The notes under the pieces: model-generated
Databases searched by the model: none
What the model was told of the DNA's origin: nothing
What the model saw: the letters and a program-made list of their open reading frames with translations, nothing else
Shown here: positions 46,113-64,000 of the stretch, one piece after another
How the letters are laid out: each line of letters opens with the position of its first letter
How positions within the stretch are numbered: position 1 is the first letter of the stretch
Program-made: the position numbers and the translations under genes
Source of the DNA: Propionispira arboris
Lineage (GTDB): Bacteria > Bacillota > Negativicutes > Selenomonadales > Selenomonadaceae
Length of the DNA: 64,000 nt
NCBI RefSeq assembly: GCF_900109225.1
Contig: NZ_FNZK01000011.1
Location: 82,211 to 146,210 of the forward strand
Direction of reading: 5' to 3'

Positions 46113-47231
46113 ATGACGGAAATACGTGAAGGCAGTGGCGAGTGTATGAATTATGCTGAAAAGGCAAGAAACGGGGAAGTTGTTGACACACAAAATGCGT
46201 TAGAAATAGAATGGGCTAATGACTTAACGTCTAAAATTATACCTATAGAAAAAAAGGCAAGAACTCTATTTTCTCGAACCAAGAAAAATTTAAACAAAGG
46301 TAATATTGTACTTGTAATTGGAGCAGGTGTATCAATTTCATGTGGTCTTCCGGCATGGAATGAATTAGTAAAAGAAGTTTCTATTCATTTATTGAAGGGT
46401 CGAGGACTCTATAAGGATGAAGTGTTAGGTACTATATACGCGATGCGTTTTGCAAAAAATCTTGTGCAATTGACACAAGCTTTAACTGCAGTATTTAGTG
46501 AAGAAGAAATAGCTCAGGCTGTGATAAAAATACTTTCAGAAAAAAACAGAAAGATTTCCCGATTATTATATACAGTTTGCGATTTTATTGAATATTTAAT
46601 AAATGTCAATGATAAGCTTGGAAAGCCGACATGTGTATTGACTTTTAATTATGATACAATAATTGAAGATGAATTAGCTAAACGCAATATTGTTATTAAA
46701 AGTTGTGATAGAAATTACGATGTAAAAACAGTGCATCCATGTCAACACATAATAATTCATGTACATGGTAGTATGCATTTGAAAGATAAGAGCAATATTG
46801 TGCTTTCAGAACACAGTTATGGAGAGGCATATTTATGTGGAAAATATGCAGATCCTCTATCAATTAGCATATCCAATGGAAAGGTTCCACTTTTTGTTGG
46901 ATTTTCGTTTAATGACATATTTGTTAGACAAATACTCCAGAAGTGCTCTATGGAAAAAAATAGAGAAATAGCTGTAGGCTTACTTGCTAAATCAGATTTA
47001 ATAGAAAATGCTGAAATAAAGATTTCAGATGAATATATGGAGGGCTATACGATAAATGATAAAGCAGGTTGGTCTAAAACAGGAAAATCTCCTATTCCAA
47101 TACGACGAGAAGCTTTAGGCAAAATACGTGAACAATTTGCTAGAGTTGTGCTTAGTTCCGTAGGTGTTGAATGGTGGTCGACAAATAATTGGGATGAAAT
47201 TCCCTTAGAATTAAAAAAACTTATTAACTAA
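46113..47231 (+). CDS. SIR2-family putative NADase effector
   Basis: The 372-residue protein starts behind AAGGAGCG. It has the SIR2 NAD-binding motif VIGAGVS (G70-A71-G72), LTFNYDTIIE, the catalytic-type histidine in IIHVHGSM (H218), SEHSYGE and FVGFSFNDIFVR. SIR2 domains in defence systems deplete NAD+ and stop phage growth. It follows the STAND-like gene by 117 bases on the same strand. I infer that the two form one system, but no overlap proves co-translation. Confidence 0.8.
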   Translation: MTEIREGSGECMNYAEKARNGEVVDTQNALEIEWANDLTSKIIPIEKKARTLFSRTKKNLNKGNIVLVIGAGVSISCGLPAWNELVKEVSIHLLKGRGLYKDEVLGTIYAMRFAKNLVQLTQALTAVFSEEEIAQAVIKILSEKNRKISRLLYTVCDFIEYLINVNDKLGKPTCVLTFNYDTIIEDELAKRNIVIKSCDRNYDVKTVHPCQHIIIHVHGSMHLKDKSNIVLSEHSYGEAYLCGKYADPLSISISNGKVPLFVGFSFNDIFVRQILQKCSMEKNREIAVGLLAKSDLIENAEIKISDEYMEGYTINDKAGWSKTGKSPIPIRREALGKIREQFARVVLSSVGVEWWSTNNWDEIPLELKKLIN

Positions 47232-49262: not shown

Positions 49263-50447
49263 TTGGGGAATAAAAGATTTCGCGGCGAAGGTACAGTTGC
49301 TTATAATGAACACAGAGAAAATTATATAGCACGATTTTCATACATCGATATAAGAACTGGTATAGTAAAGCGAAAAAGTTTTTCCGCTAAAAGTGCACAA
49401 GAAGCGTTACGACGAGGGAAAAAATGGAAACGCGATATTGAAACAGGTCTTTTGCCTGATGGCGAAAAAACGACGCTATGGGCGTGGCTGGATTTTTGGC
49501 TCATCAATTATGCAAAAAATAAAGTTAGAGAAAAAACATTTGATAAATATGAATCTTGCTTGCGTTGTTATGTTAAACCAAGACTTGGCAATGTTGCGAT
49601 TCAGAAAATAACTGGCATTCAGGTTCAGCAAACATTTAATGAATTATTGGTAACAGGTGGTGAACGTGGAAAAGGTATTTCATCGAGTACAGTAAATGCT
49701 ACAAGGAAATATCTTCGAGCAGCTTTTGATCAGGCACAAAAAGATGGTATTGTGAAAAACAACGCCATTGAAAATACGGTTGCTGTCAAAACTATTAAAC
49801 GTGACATACAAATTTTAACGTTCGAACAGTCAAAAAATCTAATTGCACAGTCAAAGGACTTTAAAAAACAGTATGGAGACGTTCCGTATATAATTTTAGT
49901 GCTTTCATTAGAGACAGGCATGCGTTTAGGGGAATTGATAGCTTTAAAATGGGACTGTGTGAATTTAAATAGTGGCTTGATATATGTTAAACGGTCAGCA
50001 AATACAAGCAAGCCAAGCTTGTATTTTCAGGAACCGAAAACAAAAAAATCAATACGGCAAATTTCATTAATGGATTCAACCATTTCAGCACTTAAAAAGT
50101 ATAAAGATTGGCAAAATTCTTACAAAGCTATATTGGGGGATAAATATAAGGATAATGGATTAGTGATTGTAAATCTTTTTGGCAATATATTGCATCCAAG
50201 TAATTTTACAAAACGAATTTTTAAACCATTGTTAAATAAAGTAGGTATTGACCGCAGTTTTCGCTTTCATGATTTACGGCACACGCATGCGAGTCAACTT
50301 TTAATGGCTGGAGTAAATCCTAAAATTGTACAGGAGAGATTAGGACATTCTACAATTGCCATGACGCTTAATACTTACTCCCATCTACTTCCTTCGATGC
50401 AGGAGGAAGCAGTTAAAGCACTTGAACAAAAGCTACGGGAAGTATAA
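49263..50447 (+). CDS. int: Tyrosine recombinase (integrase)
   Basis: The 394-residue protein starts at TTG after AAGGTGATAA. It has an N-terminal AP2-like arm-binding part, a SAM-like core domain and the catalytic domain with Arg in ETGMRLGELIALKWD, H-x-x-R in FHDLRHTHASQLL, and His/Tyr in GHSTIAMTLNTYSHLLP. It would recombine the tRNA-Arg core sites at 47722 and 63638. Confidence 0.93.
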   Translation: MGNKRFRGEGTVAYNEHRENYIARFSYIDIRTGIVKRKSFSAKSAQEALRRGKKWKRDIETGLLPDGEKTTLWAWLDFWLINYAKNKVREKTFDKYESCLRCYVKPRLGNVAIQKITGIQVQQTFNELLVTGGERGKGISSSTVNATRKYLRAAFDQAQKDGIVKNNAIENTVAVKTIKRDIQILTFEQSKNLIAQSKDFKKQYGDVPYIILVLSLETGMRLGELIALKWDCVNLNSGLIYVKRSANTSKPSLYFQEPKTKKSIRQISLMDSTISALKKYKDWQNSYKAILGDKYKDNGLVIVNLFGNILHPSNFTKRIFKPLLNKVGIDRSFRFHDLRHTHASQLLMAGVNPKIVQERLGHSTIAMTLNTYSHLLPSMQEEAVKALEQKLREV

Positions 50448-51683: not shown

Positions 51684-53549
51684 ATGGCAAATTACGAAGC
51701 TGAAAATGAATTTGTATTTGATTTAAAAAAAATGGTGCAGCTAATAGGGCGAGGATTACAAATTGGTGTGATTTTGCAAATTTTCTTTTGTGGTTGTATG
51801 ATGTACTTTACAAATTTTTATACGTTATCGGGAGAAACAATCAATTATAAAGTAACGATCAAGTATTTTATGGCATATGCCTATCCAGATAATCCGGAAC
51901 CAAGCATGGAGGCATTAGACGTTGAACCACAGTTACGACAATATGCAAGTGCTTTTGATAATCGAATATCTGAGAAAACGATGCAACTGCCGGGAAATTG
52001 GTATCAGGAACTAGCAAACTTTACTTCTGGTGGCAAATATGAACATGTTGTTTTGTTGTTGAAATGTAGCTTTTTCTCGTACATATTGTCTTTGTTGTAT
52101 ATATGGTACTTTATAGATAAATCGAAAAGCCGTCCGATTGAAGAATACATGCGAGGTAGCAAAATTATCTCGCAAAAGAAATTTGATGGATATTGGCAAG
52201 CGCAATCAAAAGGCAGTGGAATAAGAATTGGTACAACAATTATCCCAGATGATATGGTAACGAAACATATATTGATTTTAGGCACAACTGGAACAGGAAA
52301 AGGTGTTTTAATTAATCAAATGATTGAGCAAATAAAAAAGAAGCAAGCAAATTCTGTGAGTGAGCTGCCTCCTAAAATATTGTTTTATGATATCAAGGGT
52401 GAATTCGTGCAAAAACATTACCAAGCAGGTGATGTGATTTTTAATCCTTTTGATAATCGTTGTGTTGGTTGGTCTGTTTTCCAGGAATTTACGACAGAAC
52501 CTGAATTAGATGCTATAAGTAAAGCATTATTTTTAGCGCCATCCAAAACAAATGTTTTCTTCTATGATAGCGCATCAACCATTTTTCGAGCCGGATTACT
52601 TTATTTAGTTCGGAATAAGAAAACCACGAATGATGCATTGTGGAATTTTTTCAGTGCAGACAGAGATACCATTGTAAAAGCAATAAAAACATTGCCAGAC
52701 GGAGAGCGAGATGCATTGAAATTCTTGTCCGCAGATGGCGGTGAGACGACTGCATCTGTTTTAGCTACCTTAATGCAGCAAATTGCTTTTTTTAAGAATT
52801 TACGCGGATTGGATGGGGACTTTAGCTTTCGGGCATGGGCAAGCAAGCCAACAAGGCAGAATGTGTTTTTATTGAATATTGCAGAGTATAGTAAAGCCTT
52901 TGCCCCGCTTATGACCATGATTATGGATTTAATGTGCAGGACAATGCTTAGTTTGCCGGATGATTTGCACCGTAGAGTGTATTTTATTCTTGATGAGATT
53001 GGCACTTTGGATAAAATGGATTCTTTAATTCCGTTAGAAACCGTAGGAAGAAGTAAAGGAGTGAGTCTTATTTGTGCGTCGCAGGATTTTGGACAAATTG
53101 CTGAAAAATATGGGAAAGATAACTTACAAACGTTTATTAACAATTTTAATACCAATTTCTATTTTCGATTGAATGACCCCAAAACAGCTAGAGATATTGC
53201 TGATGGTATAGGCAAACAACAAGTTAAGAGAAAAGCTGAAAATCATAGTATCAACGTAAAAGAAGATACTGCTAATAAAAGCAATAATGAACAAGAACAC
53301 ACAGAGTATCTAGTTATGCCGGAAGAATTGCAACAGTTACCCGTAGGCACGGCATATTGCCGTATTTCTGAATATGATATTACAAAGTTAAAAATACCTC
53401 AAAAATACATGGAGAATAAAAATCCGGCATTTATTCCAAGGAAATTTGCTTCTTTATTTGAAGACAAGCAGATAGAGCAAGATGTTGAAGAAAATAATCA
53501 GATCAATTTACCGGAAACAAGTGTGAAACTTCGCGAATTTAAAATTTAA
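51684..53549 (+). CDS. VirD4/TraD-type coupling protein
   Basis: The 621-residue protein has two membrane segments (about residues 30-50 and 125-145), Walker A ILGTTGTGKGV near residue 200 and Walker B YFILDEIGTLDK near residue 440, with the T4CP signature ICASQDFGQIAEKYG. It links the relaxosome to a type IV secretion channel. The companion channel genes are not in the element. Confidence 0.9.
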   Translation: MANYEAENEFVFDLKKMVQLIGRGLQIGVILQIFFCGCMMYFTNFYTLSGETINYKVTIKYFMAYAYPDNPEPSMEALDVEPQLRQYASAFDNRISEKTMQLPGNWYQELANFTSGGKYEHVVLLLKCSFFSYILSLLYIWYFIDKSKSRPIEEYMRGSKIISQKKFDGYWQAQSKGSGIRIGTTIIPDDMVTKHILILGTTGTGKGVLINQMIEQIKKKQANSVSELPPKILFYDIKGEFVQKHYQAGDVIFNPFDNRCVGWSVFQEFTTEPELDAISKALFLAPSKTNVFFYDSASTIFRAGLLYLVRNKKTTNDALWNFFSADRDTIVKAIKTLPDGERDALKFLSADGGETTASVLATLMQQIAFFKNLRGLDGDFSFRAWASKPTRQNVFLLNIAEYSKAFAPLMTMIMDLMCRTMLSLPDDLHRRVYFILDEIGTLDKMDSLIPLETVGRSKGVSLICASQDFGQIAEKYGKDNLQTFINNFNTNFYFRLNDPKTARDIADGIGKQQVKRKAENHSINVKEDTANKSNNEQEHTEYLVMPEELQQLPVGTAYCRISEYDITKLKIPQKYMENKNPAFIPRKFASLFEDKQIEQDVEENNQINLPETSVKLREFKI

Positions 53550-53561
53550 GGAGACGGGAAC

Positions 53562-56078
53562 ATGTTATCTATCAGCAATGTAACTGCAAAAATGGCAAGC
53601 TCATATTATGAAAAAGATGGATATTATGCGCGGGATATGCAGGACGGTGATCGATGGCAAGGCAGGCTGTGCAAACAGCTTGCCTTGCCTATTCATTCTC
53701 TTGAGCCAGAGCAGTTCAATGAACTTGTTTTGCAAAATCCGAAACGAGCGGGTTTTGATCTTACTTTTTCCGCGCCAAAATCTGTAAGTGTCGCTATGGT
53801 CATGAACGAAGAGATGAAAAAAGATATGCTTACTTGCCATAATAAAGCAGTTGAAAAAATTCTGCATGAAATTGAGGCAAATGAAATTGCCGCGCGTATA
53901 ACAAAAAATAGTATTACCGAAACAATTCAAACGGGAAATATGGCTTGCGGCAAATTTAATCATTACGTCAGTAGAAACAGTGATATGCAGCTACACACTC
54001 ATGCGGTTATATTAAATAAGACCATGTATAACGAAAAAATCTATGCTGTTTCCAATGAATCCATATATCAAAATAAAATACTTTATGGTCAACTTTATAG
54101 AAATCAACTTGCTAAAAATTTGCAGAAAAAAGGATATTCCCTTGAAATAACTGATCATGAAAAAGGATTTTTTGAGATTAAAGGTGTTGAACAGGAAATG
54201 CTGGAGCGATTTTCTACTAGGCGGCAGGAAATTTTGCAGCAGCTTAAATCATGGAATGTAGGTGATGCGGTAAACGCTTCAAGAGCGGCACTGTTAAGTA
54301 GAAAAGCGAAAGAACATAGAAACTTAGGCGAATTGACTGAATCGTGGAGAGAAAGCATTTTGCAAGCTGGTGGTATTCAAGTTGAAAAAGTAAATGAGCC
54401 AATAAAAGTCGTCAAAGAAGATAAGCGGAATGCTTTTGATCAGGCGGTCAATCGACTATCTGAACATCAATATGCTTTTTCGAAACGAGAGCTTGAACGA
54501 GCTGTTTTAGCAGAAGGCTGTATTGCTGGAATGGAAAGAATCGATTTTGAAACACAATTGAATAAGAGCTATTTGATTTGCCTTGGCAAGCCTATATCAA
54601 ACGGAGAGGATATCTACTATACTTCACCGGAAAATCAGGCAGCAGAACTGCAAATAACGCAAAATATAGTACAATCACAAGGGAAAATGAAGGCACTCTT
54701 AGCAGAAAAGGTAAAAAGTGACCTAATTCATATTTCACAAGAACAGGGTTTAACATTATCAAAAGAGCAAACAGAAGCAGTTTTGCATATCGCAACATCA
54801 AGAGATCGTTTTTCAGCCGTTCAGGGACTTGCTGGAACAGGAAAAACATATCTGCTCAATGCAACCCGTGAAGTTCTTGAGAAAAACGGTTATAACGTTA
54901 TTGGCGCAAGCTTTACGGGAAAAGCTGCGGAAGGGTTACAATTCGAGGCAAAGATAAAAAGCACGACCATTCATTCTCTTTTAAATAAATTAGAAAAAGA
55001 AGCCGGAAACGCTATAAAAGATGAAGACTTTTCCCAGAAGAAAACTTGGGATTTTGAAGGACTTCTCTCGGGTAAAAAGCCGGAAATTTGGGTGATTGAT
55101 GAAGCTGGCTTGACTGATAATAATATTATGGTACATTTGCAGACCGCGGCTAAAGCTAAAAATGCAAAAGTTGTCCTTGTTGGTGATTATCAGCAACTTG
55201 CACCAGTTGGAGCAGGAAACAGTTATTCAAATTTAGTGCAATCTGGTCAAATTAGTACATGCTATCTTTCTGATATCCGACGGCAAAAGAATGAAACACT
55301 ATTACAGGCTGTAAAAGAATCTGTAACAGGTGATATTCATAAAAGTTTAGAACTTGTTGCAGATCATACTTTTGAAATACCGTCGACATCAAAGAGATTT
55401 AAGGCAATAACGAAAGAATATGTAGAATTATCGCCAGCAGAACAAAAAAATACGATTGTATTAACAGCAAAAAACAAGGATAGAATTGCTATTAATGATT
55501 CTATCCGGGCAGCACTTATAAAAAATGGAAGGTTGGGAGAGGGACTTGAATATAAGATTCAAACGGGAAAATCTGATGAATGTAAACGTAATTTTTCGAT
55601 AGGTGATAAAATTATGTTTTTTAAGAATGATTACAAATTAGGCGTGATGAATGGACAGATGGGAAAAGTAATAAATACTAGTGAATGTCGACTTGTTGTA
55701 GAAACTAATAATATAGCAATCAAAATTAATACAATGGAATATAATCATTTTGATCATGGATATGCAATGACGACTCATAAGGCGCAAGGCGTGACAGTAG
55801 ATCGAGCTATTATTAATATTGATTTTACACAAAAACAACTAAATAGTCGTAATAATTATTATGTAGATATAAGCAGGGCGAAGAAAAAAATTAGTATATA
55901 TAATAATTCTAATGAGAAAATAGTAAAACAAATCAGTCAGTTTACTAAAAATCTAGTTGCAACTAATTTTAAAAAAGAGCAAACTATAGAGAAGGTAAGA
56001 GAGGTAAGTAAAATTTTAAATGAGACCATATTAATTTCAAATAAAGCCCCCAACGGTATTACATTACATGTTAAGTGA
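53562..56078 (+). CDS. MobF-family relaxase-helicase (TraI/TrwC-like)
   Basis: The 838-residue protein has N-terminal catalytic tyrosines (SSYYEKDGYYARD, around residues 14-22), a three-histidine site (FNHYVSRNSDMQLHTHAVILN, near residue 145) and a C-terminal RecD-like helicase with Walker A GLAGTGKTYLL near residue 425, WVIDEAGLTD and GDYQQLAPVG. MobF relaxases nick oriT and unwind the strand to be transferred. It is shorter than F TraI and ends after the helicase. Confidence 0.92.
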   Translation: MLSISNVTAKMASSYYEKDGYYARDMQDGDRWQGRLCKQLALPIHSLEPEQFNELVLQNPKRAGFDLTFSAPKSVSVAMVMNEEMKKDMLTCHNKAVEKILHEIEANEIAARITKNSITETIQTGNMACGKFNHYVSRNSDMQLHTHAVILNKTMYNEKIYAVSNESIYQNKILYGQLYRNQLAKNLQKKGYSLEITDHEKGFFEIKGVEQEMLERFSTRRQEILQQLKSWNVGDAVNASRAALLSRKAKEHRNLGELTESWRESILQAGGIQVEKVNEPIKVVKEDKRNAFDQAVNRLSEHQYAFSKRELERAVLAEGCIAGMERIDFETQLNKSYLICLGKPISNGEDIYYTSPENQAAELQITQNIVQSQGKMKALLAEKVKSDLIHISQEQGLTLSKEQTEAVLHIATSRDRFSAVQGLAGTGKTYLLNATREVLEKNGYNVIGASFTGKAAEGLQFEAKIKSTTIHSLLNKLEKEAGNAIKDEDFSQKKTWDFEGLLSGKKPEIWVIDEAGLTDNNIMVHLQTAAKAKNAKVVLVGDYQQLAPVGAGNSYSNLVQSGQISTCYLSDIRRQKNETLLQAVKESVTGDIHKSLELVADHTFEIPSTSKRFKAITKEYVELSPAEQKNTIVLTAKNKDRIAINDSIRAALIKNGRLGEGLEYKIQTGKSDECKRNFSIGDKIMFFKNDYKLGVMNGQMGKVINTSECRLVVETNNIAIKINTMEYNHFDHGYAMTTHKAQGVTVDRAIINIDFTQKQLNSRNNYYVDISRAKKKISIYNNSNEKIVKQISQFTKNLVATNFKKEQTIEKVREVSKILNETILISNKAPNGITLHVK

Positions 56079-56143: not shown

Positions 56144-59100
56144 ATGAATAGATGTACAAGGAGAAAAGCATTAAAAAATCTTGAACATAATCTTTCTAAA
56201 TATACATGGGAAAAACAAAAATATGCAATGTTTTCTATTTTGCTTAGGGATAATAAAGAAAAAATGGAAGAAAGTGTACTGTTTTTTAATAAGAATAAAA
56301 TAATTAAAAACAATATTAATAGATTTTTCTTTTCACAAAATATTAAAGATTTACTTACTTATGAGTTGCAATTCAATGAACTAAGTGAATATGAAAATAT
56401 TGAAAAACTTTGTGTAACATTATTATGTGGATTTACTGAGAGATTAGAAAAATACATTAAATTAAAGAAATTGTATGAACGTGAGGTTTTTTCAGAAAAA
56501 TATTCTGATGCTTATACGATATTAGTAGAAATTGAGAAAAACTGTGGAATATCTATATGGAGTTGTGGACAAAAATTGTTACTAGCAGAATCTATAGGAG
56601 GATTAGAAGAAAATAAAAAAGAATTAGAATCTTTTTTTTCGGGTATTCAACCTAATGAATTTGCGAGGATATTATTAATATTTTCAAGTTATAGAGCAGA
56701 ACGCAATATGAGTTTTATAAATTATCAAGAGCATATAAAAAACTTTGTAAAAGTATTAAATGAAAGTAGCACACAGGTTTCAATAAAAAACTATTTTTTA
56801 TTTAAGATAGGTTTAGATAGAATAGATTTAAGTTTAAAAGATATGTGTTTTATTTTACAGTTAGATGCCCAAATGTCTATTGTAGATCTGTATAATAGTT
56901 ATGTAGAATTATTACAATGTATGTGCGTCAATGAAAAGGTTTCTGAAATCGGAAAATCATTTGTTTTGGGGATGGCGAAGTTACAAGATACACATATATC
57001 CAATATGAATATTAGATTAAATTTTTCTGCAAATCAATTAGAGGATTTTGTTGCAACTAAATTATGTCTTATTATAGAAGAATATACATTGTGTCACTAT
57101 AATAAGGTTATTGATTTAATAAATGAGGACGTTAAATCTAACGGAATATATGATTTTCAAATTTTAATATTATTAATAAAATCATGTATTAACAGTAAGA
57201 ATGAAATTCCATGTAATATAAAAATATTACATGATATATACAATGTTTACTCAATAAATGAATCGTATGAGTTTTCATTGAAGAACTTGAATCTTTATTT
57301 AAAAATATATAAAGATACATCATGGAAATATAAATTATTAGGATTCATAGATAGGAAAACTAATTTTGTGACTGATGTGAAAAAGCAAAAACTGTCTTTA
57401 ATAAGTGACATAAATTTGACCCCAAATTTTATTTTTATTTTGAACTCAGATGAAGAAAGAAAAGAATACTTGAAAATCTTTTTGCTTCATTGCAAGAAAA
57501 CAGTAGATTTATATAAAAAAATAAATGGATTTAAAGAATGGGAAAACGAATTTTGTTCGGAATTTAGAAATGAAATTTATAAGTCAAGATACTATATAAA
57601 AAATAATGAATCTGAAATAGCAATAAGTTTTTTAGAAAAATTAATTGAGAAAAAGTTGTATACTAGTGATTATGAAATGGAGAAAATAATTAAATATTTA
57701 TATTTAGCATATGTGTCAAGTAACAAGTTGGAAAGTGCGGGTGAGTTGATCGTTAACTCTTATTTTTATAATAAAAATATCATAAAAAGATGCAATTTAT
57801 CTTTAATGATAGACAAAAAAAACATGGGGGGAAATGTAAATTTAGATGGAAATATATCTTATCCTATTTATGTGTATCTGTATCAAAAAATGGATTTGAA
57901 GCTACAAAGAATAGTACTTTCTAATTATTTGGACTTTTACAACATAGATAATGTGGAGGATATAATAAAAAAAGAAAATACAACAAATGTAAATAAATTA
58001 ATTTTCTTTTTAAATAATATATGCACTGAATATGCAATAAAGCGGGAGGTTAGATTAGCTACAAATAGTAAAGAGGCTATGGAGTGTCGAATAAAAATTT
58101 TAAGAATACTATGCGAAATTGATAAACAAAATAAAAAAATGTATCTTGGCGAGATTAATGATATTACTACAAGACGGGAAGTTAATGAAAGAACGAAGCA
58201 AATTAGTAATAGAAAAATATTTGCGGATGTTAAAAAAATTAAATTAGCCAATGAAGATGTTTTGAAAGAAAATTTTAATAAATATATTGCGATGAAATCT
58301 TTTCAAAATGATATAAGTGAAATGGATATAGAAGGGAAAACATCTGTACAATTACTTAATAATATTGTATCGAATATAAATAAAAGTATGGGTGAAAAAC
58401 CACAGTATGCTCAAAAAGTCATTGTTTTAAGAGGTATTCTAAGTAAAATATTAGAAGAATTTTTAAGAAATGAAAAATATGGGATGAATACATATTTGAG
58501 TTCTCGTATAAGACATGGCTATTGTGATACACAATTAACTAAAATGTTTAGACAAAAAAATTTGTTATTAGTTTCTTCTACAGGAGAAAATAAAAAATAT
58601 AATGTTAGTCAATACTGGGATTCTAAAATTAATGAGACACAAGAAAAAGATTATCGTATTTTAAAAAAATCTTTATCCGAGTTTACTTTAAAAATAGAGA
58701 GGAAAGTATCTGAGATAAAAACAGAATGGATACAAATAAAACTGTATCCAAATGAATCAGGAATGTTTGATTATTCAAATATTCTTAATGAGTTGACAAT
58801 TTATGTAAATGATTTTGAAAAAGAAGGTGGAAAAACTTTTGATATGTTGTTTGACTCTGTAATAAATTATATTTGGAGTCACACTGATAGTATATTAGAA
58901 AAAATACGGTGTAGATTAAATGATGAAGTTCTAAAATATTATATGGATATTTTAAAACAACTTGAATTAAATATAAAAAAAATGCAGGACAGTACAATCA
59001 AAAAAATAGTAGAAGAAATTACTAATAACATAACCTTGGTAAAACCAAAGGTGGAAGGGGCAATTCAAGAGTTTTCAAATGTTTTTTATAAAGATGATGT

Positions 59101-59680
59101 AGAGTATCAAGATTTTACAATGAGCGAATTAATGATGATATCTACAAAAATTTTAAGGAATTTGTATAGTAATACAGAAAATATAAATTTTAAAAATAAT
59201 ATTGAATGTAAAATGAAGTTTTCGGGGGTATATTTCGCTTATTTTATTGATATAATGATGATACTATTTAATAATGTAATGGAACATAACGGGTTTGATG
59301 ATTTGAATAATTTAAAAATAGAAGTCAGCATGTCTGATGAAATTACAGAAGATGATAAGAAAGAATTACATGAGGTAGCTCCTAATAATACAGAGTTTAA
59401 TGAAAAATATTTAGTAATAAAAATGAAAAATAATTTTTCAAAAGAAATAGATAGTAATAATCTTGAAAAAAAAGTAAGAGAAGTATTGGAAGAAAAGGCT
59501 GGTAGTGAAAATAATATAAGTCAATACACACAAATTGAGGGGGGGACTGGTTTAAGAAAAATAAAGAAGACATTAAGTTATGATTTAGGAATACAATATG
59601 CGATACGTTGTTTCATAGATAATAGAGAATTTGAAATAAAAATATACTTATGTATTGAGAATTTGATACATAAAATATAA
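56144..59680 (+). CDS. dtcA: Detocs sensor histidine kinase (DtcA-like)
   Basis: The 1178-residue protein has a long N-terminal helical region (about residues 1-700) without membrane segments, then a kinase end. A candidate phosphoacceptor histidine lies in SSRIRHGYCD (H791). The GHKL ATPase is seen in IDIMMILFNNVMEHNG (N-box near 1040) and GGTGLRKIKK (G-box near 1132). Followed by a lone receiver and a receiver-PNP protein, it matches the kinase of the Detocs anti-phage system. The very low GC differs from the mobilization genes, suggesting separate acquisition. Confidence 0.8.
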   Translation: MNRCTRRKALKNLEHNLSKYTWEKQKYAMFSILLRDNKEKMEESVLFFNKNKIIKNNINRFFFSQNIKDLLTYELQFNELSEYENIEKLCVTLLCGFTERLEKYIKLKKLYEREVFSEKYSDAYTILVEIEKNCGISIWSCGQKLLLAESIGGLEENKKELESFFSGIQPNEFARILLIFSSYRAERNMSFINYQEHIKNFVKVLNESSTQVSIKNYFLFKIGLDRIDLSLKDMCFILQLDAQMSIVDLYNSYVELLQCMCVNEKVSEIGKSFVLGMAKLQDTHISNMNIRLNFSANQLEDFVATKLCLIIEEYTLCHYNKVIDLINEDVKSNGIYDFQILILLIKSCINSKNEIPCNIKILHDIYNVYSINESYEFSLKNLNLYLKIYKDTSWKYKLLGFIDRKTNFVTDVKKQKLSLISDINLTPNFIFILNSDEERKEYLKIFLLHCKKTVDLYKKINGFKEWENEFCSEFRNEIYKSRYYIKNNESEIAISFLEKLIEKKLYTSDYEMEKIIKYLYLAYVSSNKLESAGELIVNSYFYNKNIIKRCNLSLMIDKKNMGGNVNLDGNISYPIYVYLYQKMDLKLQRIVLSNYLDFYNIDNVEDIIKKENTTNVNKLIFFLNNICTEYAIKREVRLATNSKEAMECRIKILRILCEIDKQNKKMYLGEINDITTRREVNERTKQISNRKIFADVKKIKLANEDVLKENFNKYIAMKSFQNDISEMDIEGKTSVQLLNNIVSNINKSMGEKPQYAQKVIVLRGILSKILEEFLRNEKYGMNTYLSSRIRHGYCDTQLTKMFRQKNLLLVSSTGENKKYNVSQYWDSKINETQEKDYRILKKSLSEFTLKIERKVSEIKTEWIQIKLYPNESGMFDYSNILNELTIYVNDFEKEGGKTFDMLFDSVINYIWSHTDSILEKIRCRLNDEVLKYYMDILKQLELNIKKMQDSTIKKIVEEITNNITLVKPKVEGAIQEFSNVFYKDDVEYQDFTMSELMMISTKILRNLYSNTENINFKNNIECKMKFSGVYFAYFIDIMMILFNNVMEHNGFDDLNNLKIEVSMSDEITEDDKKELHEVAPNNTEFNEKYLVIKMKNNFSKEIDSNNLEKKVREVLEEKAGSENNISQYTQIEGGTGLRKIKKTLSYDLGIQYAIRCFIDNREFEIKIYLCIENLIHKI

Positions 59681-59694
59681 AAATAAAGGAGTAG

Positions 59695-60177
59695 ATGATA
59701 GTCTTGAAGATATTATATATAGAAGATGAATTAGATAAAGCTAATCAGGTCAAAATGGCTATCACAAATTATTTAAACGATGTAGATGTATGCATAAAAA
59801 TGTCTTATACGACAGGAATTATTGCGATTAAAAAAAATTGTTATGATGTAATTTTGATCGATATGAGTTTACCATTATATGATGTTAAATATGATAGTGA
59901 TGAAGATAATGATTTTGAAACTTTTGCTGGTATTGATATAATGAAAGAAATGGATCGAATTGGGAACAAAACGGCAGTTATTGTTATTACAGCATTTGAT
60001 GTTTTGGGGAAAAATGATAAGCAGGTTAACATTAAGCAACTTGATAAAGATATAAAGAATGAATTTGGGAATCAGTATTTAGGAATAGTTCAATACGACT
60101 CATCTTCATTAGAATGGCATCAAATTTTAATTAACTATATAAAGAAGGTGCATGATGAGAATATTACTAGTAGATGA
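59695..60177 (+). CDS. dtcB: Detocs stand-alone receiver (DtcB-like)
   Basis: The 160-residue protein is one receiver domain: acidic pair in LYIEDELD, phosphoacceptor aspartate in VILIDMSLP, threonine in VIVITAFD, with an acidic insert (YDSDEDNDF) after the active site. It has no output domain. In Detocs, the free receiver acts as a phosphate sink that prevents false activation. Its end overlaps the effector gene by 26 bases, implying coupled translation. Confidence 0.85.
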   Translation: MIVLKILYIEDELDKANQVKMAITNYLNDVDVCIKMSYTTGIIAIKKNCYDVILIDMSLPLYDVKYDSDEDNDFETFAGIDIMKEMDRIGNKTAVIVITAFDVLGKNDKQVNIKQLDKDIKNEFGNQYLGIVQYDSSSLEWHQILINYIKKVHDENITSR

Positions 60178-61339
60178 TGAAACACAAAAACTAAAAGAGA
60201 TAGGGAAACTTTTGCAATCAATTGAAGGTATTTCTAAAGAGGATATTGTATATGCAATTGATGTAAGTTATGCAAAAAAAAGTCTAATTAAAGAAACTTT
60301 TGATTTAATGATTTTGGACTTGAATATGCCAGATGCTGTAGGAGAAGAGCCTAAAGATAATGCTGGCTGTGACTTTATTAATGAAATAATAGGTGTGCAT
60401 AGATATAAGAAACCAAGAGAAATAGTAATTTTGACGGCATATGAAGACTTAAAAAAACAAGTGCCTTTTAATAAAGCATTTTTAATGCTAAAATATGATG
60501 AATCTTCTTTAGAATGGAAAGAAGTATTAAATGATAAAGTAAAATATATATTGGCTTTTGAAGAAAAGAATAAGACATATATGTGTGAGTGTGTAATAAT
60601 TACGGCTGTGGACATTGAATTCCAAGCAGTTAAGAAGATTTCTTCTCAATGGCAAGTATTATATGTTGATGATGATACTAGTACATACTATAAAACCAAA
60701 TTGAATGATAAAATTGATGTGGTTTTAGTACAACAAACTGAAATGGGAATAGCAGCAGCAGCTACGTTAGCCTCAAAAGTACTTTATAAGTTTAACCCTA
60801 AATATGTTATAATGGCGGGAATCGCAGCAGGTATTGATCAATCAAATAATTTTGGGGATATAATAATTCCAGATGTTGTTTGGAATTATAGTGGTGGGAA
60901 GTATATTGAGAACGATGGAAAGGTCACTTTTTCACCGGATCCTAAATACATTGCGCTGGATACTGGAGTAAAAGAAAAACTGAGAAATGATTATACTGAT
61001 ATTTTGTGTAAAATCAAAAAGCAGTGGAACAGCCCACCTAAATGGGATTTAAACATTGTACAAGGTCCATTAGCTTGTGGAGCAGCAGTAATAGCTAGTA
61101 AAGATATTGTAAATGAGCAAATTTTAAAGCATTCAAGAAAAACTTGTGGATTAGATATGGAATCTTATGGAGTGTTTTTTGCGGTGCAATCTACAGTTAA
61201 AAAAACAACAATTCCTATTTGCATAAAATCTATAAGTGATTATGCTGATTCGCAAAAAAACAATGACTATCAATCTTATGCAGCATATACTAGTGCAGAA
61301 TTCACGAAGTATGTTATCCTTAATGTTTTAGAATTTTAA
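60152..61339 (+). CDS. dtcC: Detocs effector: receiver fused to nucleoside phosphorylase domain (DtcC-like)
   Basis: The 395-residue protein has an N-terminal receiver (LLVDDETQK, LMILDLNMPD, VILTAYED) and, from about residue 150, a purine nucleoside phosphorylase/MTAN fold: VIITAVDIEFQAV, VIMAGIAAGID, GLDMESYGVFFA, IKSISDYAD. Detocs DtcC cleaves ATP to adenine and ribose triphosphate upon phage infection, known from the 2023 description of that family. The key motifs are all present, so an active effector is expected. ATG 60152 or 60155 may start it. Confidence 0.88.
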   Translation: MMRILLVDDETQKLKEIGKLLQSIEGISKEDIVYAIDVSYAKKSLIKETFDLMILDLNMPDAVGEEPKDNAGCDFINEIIGVHRYKKPREIVILTAYEDLKKQVPFNKAFLMLKYDESSLEWKEVLNDKVKYILAFEEKNKTYMCECVIITAVDIEFQAVKKISSQWQVLYVDDDTSTYYKTKLNDKIDVVLVQQTEMGIAAAATLASKVLYKFNPKYVIMAGIAAGIDQSNNFGDIIIPDVVWNYSGGKYIENDGKVTFSPDPKYIALDTGVKEKLRNDYTDILCKIKKQWNSPPKWDLNIVQGPLACGAAVIASKDIVNEQILKHSRKTCGLDMESYGVFFAVQSTVKKTTIPICIKSISDYADSQKNNDYQSYAAYTSAEFTKYVILNVLEF

Positions 61340-61609: not shown

Positions 61610-61638
61610 TTGTAAGTTAATATTTAAAATGGTAAAAT
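61610..61638 (+). promoter_or_regulatory. Promoter for the ncRNA-RT locus
   Basis: TTGTAA (61610-61615) and TAAAAT (61633-61638) are separated by 17 bases, a sigma-A-like promoter. The predicted start near 61645 falls exactly at the foot of the first hairpin of the structured region. Confidence 0.6.
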
Positions 61639-61644
61639 GAAAAT

Positions 61645-61965
61645 GTCCTATGGAATTAGACATAGGAGCAGGAGATTGTTGTCAAGTGTTCGATGACAAG
61701 TTCTTGAAGAAATTCTTGCAAGAAAGTCGTCAAGAACTTTCGAGTCTGCGGATATACTAACAACAATATCATGATTGCTATTAAAGTGATTCTGATGCTG
61801 TCGATTTGACATTCCTCCCAGGTTATTATAACATAGCCTATAATTAGAGCGATTTTTCGGGTAGCTGGTATCCAGCTTAATCTTTACTAAAAACTGAATG
61901 CCATGTTTTTTTGTATACCTGCCAGCTGAGGAATGCTACCCTCCATGCTGGTGGGTATTGCGCAT
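61645..61965 (+). ncRNA. Structured RNA upstream of RT, candidate DRT2 template ncRNA
   Basis: Stems visible in order are: TCCTATG/CATAGGA (61646-61667), an enclosing ATTGTTG/CAACAAT (61675-61681 with 61761-61767), within it TTGTCA/TGACAA and AGTTCTTGA/TCAAGAACT (61699-61738), then AGCTGG/CCAGCT (61863-61877) and a 12-position stem at 61915-61926 with 61947-61958. The RT ribosome binding site follows at once. DRT2 systems use an ncRNA just upstream of the RT as template for repetitive cDNA. Ends are approximate. Confidence 0.6.
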
Positions 61966-61981
61966 TTATGGAGGCTTTGCG

Positions 61982-63334
61982 ATGAATAAAGAAATGAAAC
62001 AGCAATTAAAAAGTATTCCGTTAAAACATTATGCTCATTTTGACGGTAGAATATCTATGAAAACGGCTTGGGACTATGTAACGAATCCTCAAAAAATTAT
62101 TCAGCACCATTTTTATCCTTTTATTTGTTATGATAAGGACTATACCAAATACAATAAAAATAAAGGTGTAAAATCAAAGAAACGTAAATTATGTTATTCT
62201 GCGCATATTGACAGATGTATTTATCAATATTACGCATGTTTATTAAATGAAATATACAATCAGCGGACTAGTGACGATGGTATCGTAGAAGTGGCTGTTG
62301 CTTATAGAAATAACTTAAAAAAAAATAATATACATTTTGCCAAGCAAGCAATAGATTTTATCAGGAATCAAAAGTCATGTTATATCTTTGTTGGCGATTT
62401 TACGAATTTTTTTGATTCGTTAAATCATAAATATTTAAAAAAACAGATTTGCAGTTTACTCACATGTGAAGAGTTACCTGATGATTATTATGCTGTATTT
62501 AAAAATATTACTCAATATTCTGAATGGAATTTAAGCGATTTGCTTTTACTAAACAAAATGGAAAATACAATCAAGGGCAGACGGTCATTAAATCAAAAAG
62601 AAACAATTCTTACTCTCCGTCAATTTAAAGACAATAAACATCAATTTTTAAGCCCTGGTAAAAAAAGAAGCAAGGGTATTCCACAAGGGTCGGCTATTAG
62701 TGCTGTATTAGCAAATGTGTATATGTTGGAGTTTGATAAACAAGTCAATGATTATGTAAAATCACAATCAGGTCTATACATGCGTTATAGTGATGATTTT
62801 ATTATTGTACTGCCAATGGGGAATGATAAAGTATTTCAAAAACAGTATGACTTTATTTGTCAATTTATAAATGCAATTCCTGATTTGCAGTTAGAATCAA
62901 AGAAAACGCAAATTTTTGAGTATACGACAAATGTTTTGCATAACTGTAATGATAAATTTATAATAAACGGCGAAAAGGGAAAAGATTTTTTGGATTATTT
63001 GGGCTTTACTTTTGATGGAAAAACTGTAACTGTAAGAGACAAAACGCTTTCAAAATATTATTATCGTATGTACCGAAAGCTTGAAACAATAATTCAGAAT
63101 CGTGGTGTGTCCTCCAATGGAAATAAAATCAGTTGCAAAAGATTGTATTTGGGATATTCAGAACGTGGCGCGAAGATTGATAAGTCTACTCAAGAAATGG
63201 ATAATAAACACAGCGGCAATTTTTTAACATATATTAATAGAGCTAAAAAGGTTTTTAGTGGAAATGAAAATATTGAGCGTGGTACCAAAAGACATATGCA
63301 AAAAATTCGTAAAAAACTAAAAGCTTTAAAATAG
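61982..63334 (+). CDS. Defence-associated reverse transcriptase (UG/Abi type, DRT2-like)
   Basis: The ATG at 61982 has GGAGG seven bases upstream; an in-frame ATG at 61898 would extend into the structured RNA. The 450-residue protein has RT motifs: ALDYS-like FVGDFTNFFDSLNH (motif A with DxxxFF, near residue 140), KGIPQGSAISAVLANVYM (motif B), and RYSDDFIIV (motif C, near 269). The start (KSIPLKHYAHFDGRISM) and the lack of extra domains resemble UG2/DRT2 enzymes, which copy their upstream ncRNA. Other UG classes or a retron-like RT remain possible. Confidence 0.75.
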   Translation: MNKEMKQQLKSIPLKHYAHFDGRISMKTAWDYVTNPQKIIQHHFYPFICYDKDYTKYNKNKGVKSKKRKLCYSAHIDRCIYQYYACLLNEIYNQRTSDDGIVEVAVAYRNNLKKNNIHFAKQAIDFIRNQKSCYIFVGDFTNFFDSLNHKYLKKQICSLLTCEELPDDYYAVFKNITQYSEWNLSDLLLLNKMENTIKGRRSLNQKETILTLRQFKDNKHQFLSPGKKRSKGIPQGSAISAVLANVYMLEFDKQVNDYVKSQSGLYMRYSDDFIIVLPMGNDKVFQKQYDFICQFINAIPDLQLESKKTQIFEYTTNVLHNCNDKFIINGEKGKDFLDYLGFTFDGKTVTVRDKTLSKYYYRMYRKLETIIQNRGVSSNGNKISCKRLYLGYSERGAKIDKSTQEMDNKHSGNFLTYINRAKKVFSGNENIERGTKRHMQKIRKKLKALK

Positions 63335-63673: not shown

Positions 63674-64000
63674 TGTATTTTGCAAGTGAAAATTCCTCAC
63701 TTTTGCAAAAGTTTTTCCTCACCTATATGGGTGGGGAATTTTATCCATCTTGCCGCATAAGCGAATCGCGCATGCGGTTGCTAGGGCCATCGTAAAGCAA
63801 GAGATAACTATGGTGTACCAGCCGATCAATTATGGCTGCGGTCATTTGTTCATCATAAAAAATACTCACCCAGCGGCTGAACTCAAGATTGGTTGTCAAA
63901 ACAACGTTCCTGCGCTCATAGCTGTCGGAAATAACTTGAAACAGCAATTGTGCAGCTTCTCTGTCCAATGGCACATAACCCCATTCATCACAGATTAACA
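63674..64000 (-). mobile_element. IS21-family element, one end
   Basis: The stretch from 63674 starts with TG and contains repeated TTTTGCAA and CCTCAC blocks (63674-63722), as in the multiple terminal repeats of IS21 elements, then the istB gene on the minus strand. The rest lies outside the window. Insertion is inside the tRNA-Arg att copy. Confidence 0.65.
63741..64000 (-). CDS. istB: IstB-like transposition helper ATPase, 5' end outside window
   Basis: The minus-strand frame runs from beyond 64000 to a stop at 63741 and reads LLICDEWGYVPLDREAAQLLFQ (Walker B-type CDEWG), then NVVLTTNLEFSRWVSIF and LVHHSYLLLYDGPSNRMR, a typical IstB C-terminus. IstB is the AAA+ helper that selects targets for the IstA transposase of IS21 elements. 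The start and istA are not in view. Confidence 0.92.
   Translation of the reverse strand, partial: LICDEWGYVPLDREAAQLLFQVISDSYERRNVVLTTNLEFSRWVSIFYDEQMTAAIIDRLVHHSYLLLYDGPSNRMRDSLMRQDG

Follow-up and report, generated by a model that had tools for sequence, protein, structure and literature searches.

The window, a 64,000-nt stretch of Propionispira arboris DNA, carries a reverse transcriptase (RT) gene preceded by a promoter and a structured RNA (Table 1). A longer reading of the RT from 61898 was set aside, because its start would fall inside covarying stems. Directly upstream of the promoter and on the same strand, a three-gene operon (56144-61339) matches the PADLOC candidate defence system PDC-M60A/B/C (1e-55, 6e-32 and 1e-83); the third of its proteins has a response-regulator domain fused to a PNP_UDP_1 nucleosidase domain. 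The initial annotation had assigned the locus to a Negativicute mobile element. RpoB of the host confirms the first part, with its nearest named match a Selenomonadaceae MAG (87%), followed by Anaerosinus and Massilibacillus (84%). The second part agrees with the adjoining genes for a TraD/TrwB-type coupling protein and a MobF relaxase-helicase (51684-56078), and a mobilisable or conjugative element seems to carry the defence genes as cargo. Elsewhere in the window, prophage genes occupy 15116-39237 (terminases, capsid, tail proteins and a GH25 lysin), and a SIR2-like domain protein, possibly another defence gene, is encoded at 46113-47231, past the prophage lysis end and ahead of a tyrosine integrase (49263-50447). 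A minus-strand frame at the contig end, where the assembly stops (63741-64000), resembles IstB.

Table 1. Features of the DRT2 locus in window coordinates; minus-strand elements are predicted to arise on tandem copying of the template.
Feature	Position	Strand	Basis or detail
ncRNA-RT operon promoter	61610-61638	+	TTGTAA 61610-61615, 17 bases, TAAAAT 61633-61638
Rfam RT-6 (RF03027) match	61644-61719	+	55.8 bits, gathering score 46.7; 5′ part of the ncRNA
5′ hairpin CCTATG/CATAGG	61647-61666	+	covariation
Jump motif ATT-1	61675-61677	+	template start
Predicted template, 168 nt	61675-61842	+	jump homology, 3n length, 17-nt promoter join
Predicted neo repeat	61675-61842	-	56 stop-free codons per turn in tandem
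Rebuilt -35 TTGACA	61685-61680	-	predicted, tandem junction
Neo Shine-Dalgarno GGGAGG	61819-61814	-	predicted repeat
-10 hairpin AGGTTA/TAGCCT	61820-61839	+	63.5% of cells paired, double changes in 5/6 pairs
Rebuilt -10 TATAAT	61830-61825	-	predicted, tandem junction
Jump motif ATT-2	61843-61845	+	directly 3′ of the template
Pseudoknot GGGTAGC/GCTACCC	61859-61865 with 61935-61941	+	98.9% of cells paired, double changes in 4/7 pairs
Tower-like hairpin TGGTAT/ATGCCA	61866-61871 with 61898-61903	+	81.9% of cells paired, double changes in 6/6 pairs
Terminal hairpin ATACCTGCCAGC/GCTGGTGGGTAT	61915-61958	+	98.7% of cells paired, double changes in 10/12 pairs
RT Shine-Dalgarno GGAGG	61970-61974	+	read from sequence
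DRT2 RT gene, 450 aa	61982-63334	+	ATG 61982, stop 63334, YSDD active site

The RT had been described as DRT2-like and far from the enterobacterial systems, and both descriptions hold. PADLOC profiles score it at 469 bits for Drt2, compared to 79 bits for the next RT family and 73.5 bits for Drt9. Drt2 also ranks first in NCBIfam, at 370.7 bits, below the naming cut-off of 390, and the solved Drt2 chains are the best PDB match (residues 15-444). As single-sequence scans of genome and viral contigs with the query P0001 returned no matches, we searched for relatives with a 27-protein alignment and kept the best 80 of 356. The closest relatives, P0002-P0006, show 60-67% RT identity; a viral-contig scan for closer RT relatives gave one match, at 30%, which was left unused. 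A tree of 83 related RTs (SH-aLRT support only, with a midpoint root for drawing only) splits into sides of 14 and 69 rows with 99% support. The smaller side, mostly Pseudomonadota, holds relatives of the solved Drt2, two of which, L111 and L113, score 580 and 555 bits against it. The window RT lies across this split on the larger, mostly Bacillota side, beside a Selenomonas MAG (support 92); another relative on that side, P0074 from Desulfosporosinus, carries the NCBI name Drt2. By profile, structure match and phylogeny, which groups it with Drt2/UG2 and not outside UG2, the window RT is a member of DRT2 (UG2).

In the published accounts of DRT2, the template is copied in tandem; where two copies meet, a -35 box is brought together with a -10 box and an endless frame, neo, arises (PMC12039810, PMC11100668). 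The Klebsiella RNA is described there as a 5′ hairpin, a template, and a tower with a pseudoknot ahead of the RT gene (PMC12039810). We searched the upstream regions of 81 relatives and the window, 82 in all, for a comparable arrangement. Two recurring anchors, ATTKNTGTCAA and ATTATANCAHNNNTNNNNATYG, were used to select loci by anchor mismatch limits only; 53 of the 82 regions qualify, 28 are without the anchors, and one is too short. At 80% identity the 53 loci fall into 32 clusters; their hosts are Paenibacillaceae, Clostridia and Negativicutes, among others.

The initial annotation reported a -35/-10 pair with 17-base spacing, leading into at least five stems that reach the RT ribosome binding site. 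The promoter stands, and its position matches that in relatives: in 27/32 cluster representatives, the top-scoring -35/-10 pair has its end 39-42 nt upstream of the template anchor, a count from a best-of search without a shuffled control. The region 61644-61970 folds at -101.9 kcal/mol; 100 shuffles average -75.6, and all of them fold less well (z -5.8). Covariation across homologues, the check proposed with the annotation, identified five helices, one of them a pseudoknot whose partner sits in the loop of the terminal hairpin; the structures end at 61958, 12 bases before the Shine-Dalgarno (SD) sequence of the RT. In the 5′ hairpin, 92.7% of cells are paired, with 49 double-change cells compared to 13.8 in shuffles (32 sequences). 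The four 3′ helices comprise 31 pairs with 88.7% of cells paired and 116 double-change cells compared to 37.1 (26 sequences); this alignment omits six of the 32 representatives, which have a different 3′ part (L052, L076, L084, L085, L086 and L090). None of 500 shuffles matches the covariation score of either set. When the partners are shifted by 1-3 columns, the score drops from 0.80 to no more than 0.31 for the 5′ hairpin and from 0.43 to no more than 0.17 for the 3′ helices. The number of pairs with a double change is uninformative for the 5′ hairpin, where 245/500 shuffles equal it. The -10 hairpin, whose loop is reached by the complement of the rebuilt -10, is the weakest of the five, and a template-closing stem GGAG/CUCC is unsupported, as 438/1000 partner swaps do as well. 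The scaffold pairs are intact in the window's own row of the alignment. With the RT in Drt2/UG2 and its upstream RNA covarying, the earlier reading of the locus is supported.

Rfam recognizes part of this RNA in the window as RT-6; RT-12 is absent. The RT-6 model has 75 positions, which take in the 5′ hairpin and the first part of the template; it includes neither the remainder of the template nor the scaffold. Among 398 genomes of the phylum, RT-6 gave two matches, one of them in the window's own genome and one above the cut-off. Across 18 loci tested in all, RT-6 occurs in 7/10 from the 53-locus set (missing in L052, L084 and L090) and RT-12 in 7/7 on the Klebsiella side, and neither was detected in L098, from a deeper Bacillota branch. 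The two names denote a Bacillota-side 5′ part (RT-6) and a Klebsiella-side 3′ part (RT-12).

From the sequence of this locus we predict a neo gene; the initial annotation proposed none. In tandem copies of the predicted 168-nt template, TTGACA and TATAAT separated by 17 nt would span the junction between units, predicted to read TTGACAACAAT/TATAGGC, with the slash at the unit boundary. When the boxes are joined at 17 nt across the 53 loci, 52 of the repeat lengths are divisible by three, and all 53 are once the anchor of L054 is corrected by hand: its 3′ anchor had been wrongly placed, and the one found in its near-copies gives a repeat of 138 nt. Repeat lengths range from 123 to 180 nt, all of them 3n. 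At this join, the bases 12-15 past the -10 match the start of the template in 32, 31, 26 and 21 of the 32 clusters, the first being A. Since the first anchors include part of the jump motif, we re-chose loci with motif-blind anchors. These retrieved 45 loci, of which 40 have a 3n length; the other five are L084 and L085, which were mis-anchored and fit with the original anchors, and L077, L087 and L088, which belong to the 28 anchor-less regions. In the motif-blind loci of 3n length, AT is found on both sides in 22/23 cluster representatives, and the two sides share three bases in 19. As a positive control, five Klebsiella-side loci reproduced the published pattern, with 117-nt units, ACA at either side and a single open frame; the script used output only candidates having an open frame. 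The window lacks the ACA-1/ACA-2 template flanks of that side and has ATT/ATT instead.

Stop-freedom by itself leaves the junction unfixed, and it is homology and promoter spacing that fix it. Other jump repeats in the window could in principle be used, such as ACATAG at 61660/61831, which would give a unit of 171 nt, also a multiple of three; the corresponding choice is stop-free in 31/32 clusters. However, three-base homology at that site occurs in 3/32 clusters compared to 25/32 at the ATT site (the anchors of this set favour AT, a bias from which the motif-blind set is free), the promoter spacer would be 20 nt, and position 61660 lies within the covarying 5′ hairpin. On homology, spacer and hairpin overlap we dropped the ACATAG junction, and we regard a jump at this or another such repeat as very improbable.

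With the 17-nt join, an identical circular frame is free of stops in 53/53 motif-selected loci and 32/32 clusters, where shuffles that preserve dinucleotides and the 3n length predict 3.6/32 clusters; each of the other five frames is open in no more than 4/32 clusters (range 0-4). The encoded repeats are hydrophobic: GRAVY exceeds that of stop-free shuffles in 32/32 clusters (mean z 2.4), and in the window it is 0.87 compared to 0.16, with 0/200 shuffles reaching 0.87. A best-of search found a match to AGGAGG of at least 5/6 shortly after the -10 in 27/32 clusters. There are 17 ATGs located 5-12 nt past the best SD, all of them in the predicted neo frame, and 20/32 clusters have a start codon of this frame at SD distance. 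The relative L030, from Paenibacillus ferrarius, has a clear ATG start. A model of a single Neo repeat shows two helices (pLDDT 77, pTM 0.37), which is weak evidence, and a PDB search with it returned no match.

We also considered whether rolling copying occurs at these loci with a product that acts as DNA or RNA, the open frame being a by-product of base composition. DRT9 and DRT10 offer a precedent, as Class 2 UG RTs that make RNA-templated repetitive cDNA (PMC12632851); they differ from the system described here in that their homopolymer or short-repeat DNA products arise by other routes. Two observations fit this explanation. The window is without a start codon at the SD, and a codon-position test on ten pairs detected no third-position excess (43/35/45, p 0.5) and no purifying selection. 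However, the opening of one of six frames in 32/32 clusters where 3.6 are expected, the 3n length of all repeats over the range observed, and the hydrophobic bias in 32/32 clusters argue against a by-product of composition, and we judge a nucleic-acid product highly improbable. The even distribution of substitutions over codon positions indicates that openness and hydrophobicity, rather than particular amino acids, are kept. Wilkinson and colleagues likewise put most conserved Neo residues down to DNA-level conservation.

A further question is whether the family works as described but the window copy is weak or dead through loss of its neo start, or uses a second open frame. At the site where many relatives have a start codon, the window reads ATC, with no ATG, GTG or TTG of the neo frame at SD distance; in Klebsiella neo, GUG was the sole codon able to substitute, in part, for the start (PMC11100668). 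On the same minus strand, a second circular frame of the window template is also endless, has an ATG one base past the SD, and corresponds to the frame that Klebsiella-side loci use. Against a degenerate or reassigned copy, the RT is intact with its YSDD motif and the scaffold pairs are preserved; moreover, the second frame is hydrophilic (GRAVY -0.73) and open in just 2/32 clusters, and a one-base distance from SD to ATG is poor. We consider a weak copy or use of the second frame unlikely, while giving it appreciable weight.

A search of 380 genomes of the class yielded ten other loci, three of them encountered before, that had no part in setting the rule. The anchors are present in five of the ten, and 5/5 have 3n repeats open in the predicted neo frame. 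Only two of these are new templates, L128 (189 nt) and L004 (186 nt); those of L127, L129 and L130 repeat the templates of L052, L084 and L090. The anchors are absent from L002, L003, L131, L132 and L133. L095-L102 are likewise DRT2 relatives without them, and 19 of the 69 rows on the Bacillota side of the tree lie outside the 53 loci. Several anchor-less relatives seem to have structured upstream DNA with a different layout, and perhaps hold further neo grammars.

Taken together, we think it very likely that the locus encodes a DRT2 RT with a covarying, pseudoknotted RNA, and that positions 61675-61842 of this RNA are copied repeatedly into a promoter-bearing endless gene whose product, Neo, is likely growth-stopping. 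The template, the junction and the encoded frame are predictions; rolling-circle copying at this locus we infer by analogy. In the mechanism that we propose, the RT would bind its own RNA, and phage infection would likely trigger copying from 61842 down to 61675, beginning, if the Klebsiella system is a guide, from the RNA's own 3′ end. At the 5′ end of the template, the last cDNA bases, ...AAT from ATT-1, would melt off, re-anneal to ATT-2 and prime the next round. As in Klebsiella, second-strand synthesis may then turn the tandem array double-stranded, each TTGACA-17-TATAAT join may transcribe an endless hydrophobic 56-aa repeat, and the Neo repeat protein would likely arrest growth of infected cells.

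Comparison with the Klebsiella pneumoniae DRT2 (solved, 9c0i and others) locates what is common and what has shifted. Both share the RT family, the order of 5′ hairpin, template and pseudoknotted 3′ scaffold before the RT gene, and tandem copies in which TTGACA and TATAAT come to lie 17 nt apart and one endless hydrophobic frame opens. The jump motif, in contrast, is AT(T) on the window's side and ACA on the Klebsiella side, where it lies one base further out. The bases around the junction divide as 5+12 on the window's side compared to 6+11 in Klebsiella, the frame runs through the -35 as TTG-ACA rather than xTT-GAC, and the repeat unit is 168 nt in the window compared to 120 in Klebsiella DRT2. 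We hypothesize, with the chances for and against evenly balanced, that the Bacillota half of DRT2 has a grammar of its own, in which the jump uses AT(T/G) microhomology, the register is moved by one base and a different frame runs through the rebuilt promoter. Under this hypothesis the jump site, the frame and the sequence of Neo change over time, while selection maintains the 17-nt join and a frame that is endless and hydrophobic. Codon-by-codon homology between Neo proteins from the two halves would therefore be lacking, and the window, open in both frames, may be transitional or dual-coding.

DRT2, neo and RT-6 are already known. Passages of a 2024 preprint report RNAs predicted for divergent DRT2 clades, call Neo annotation there "more challenging" and raise alternative mechanisms (PMC11100668). 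Neo genes for the Bacillota side were not found in the titles, abstracts and passages of the literature; the preprint's supplements and its fig. S6 may assign some. Literature searches pairing Drt2 with Negativicutes, or RT-6 with structured RNAs or reverse transcriptase, returned no paper, and the name "RT-6" brought up unrelated titles only among the matches listed. Within the same range of titles, abstracts and passages, we could not find the AT jump, the shifted register, the switched frame or the Bacillota-side neo rule in print.

A single rule, comprising the AT jump, the 17-nt join and the TTG-ACA frame, predicts neo in 53 loci and in two new templates that were not used to set it, and RT-6 likely represents the 5′ portion of an RNA template from which a gene is made. 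If the proposal is true, the parts of gene synthesis would become separable by comparison, with each predicted repeat directly testable, and gene synthesis from RNA would be common to both main branches of DRT2.
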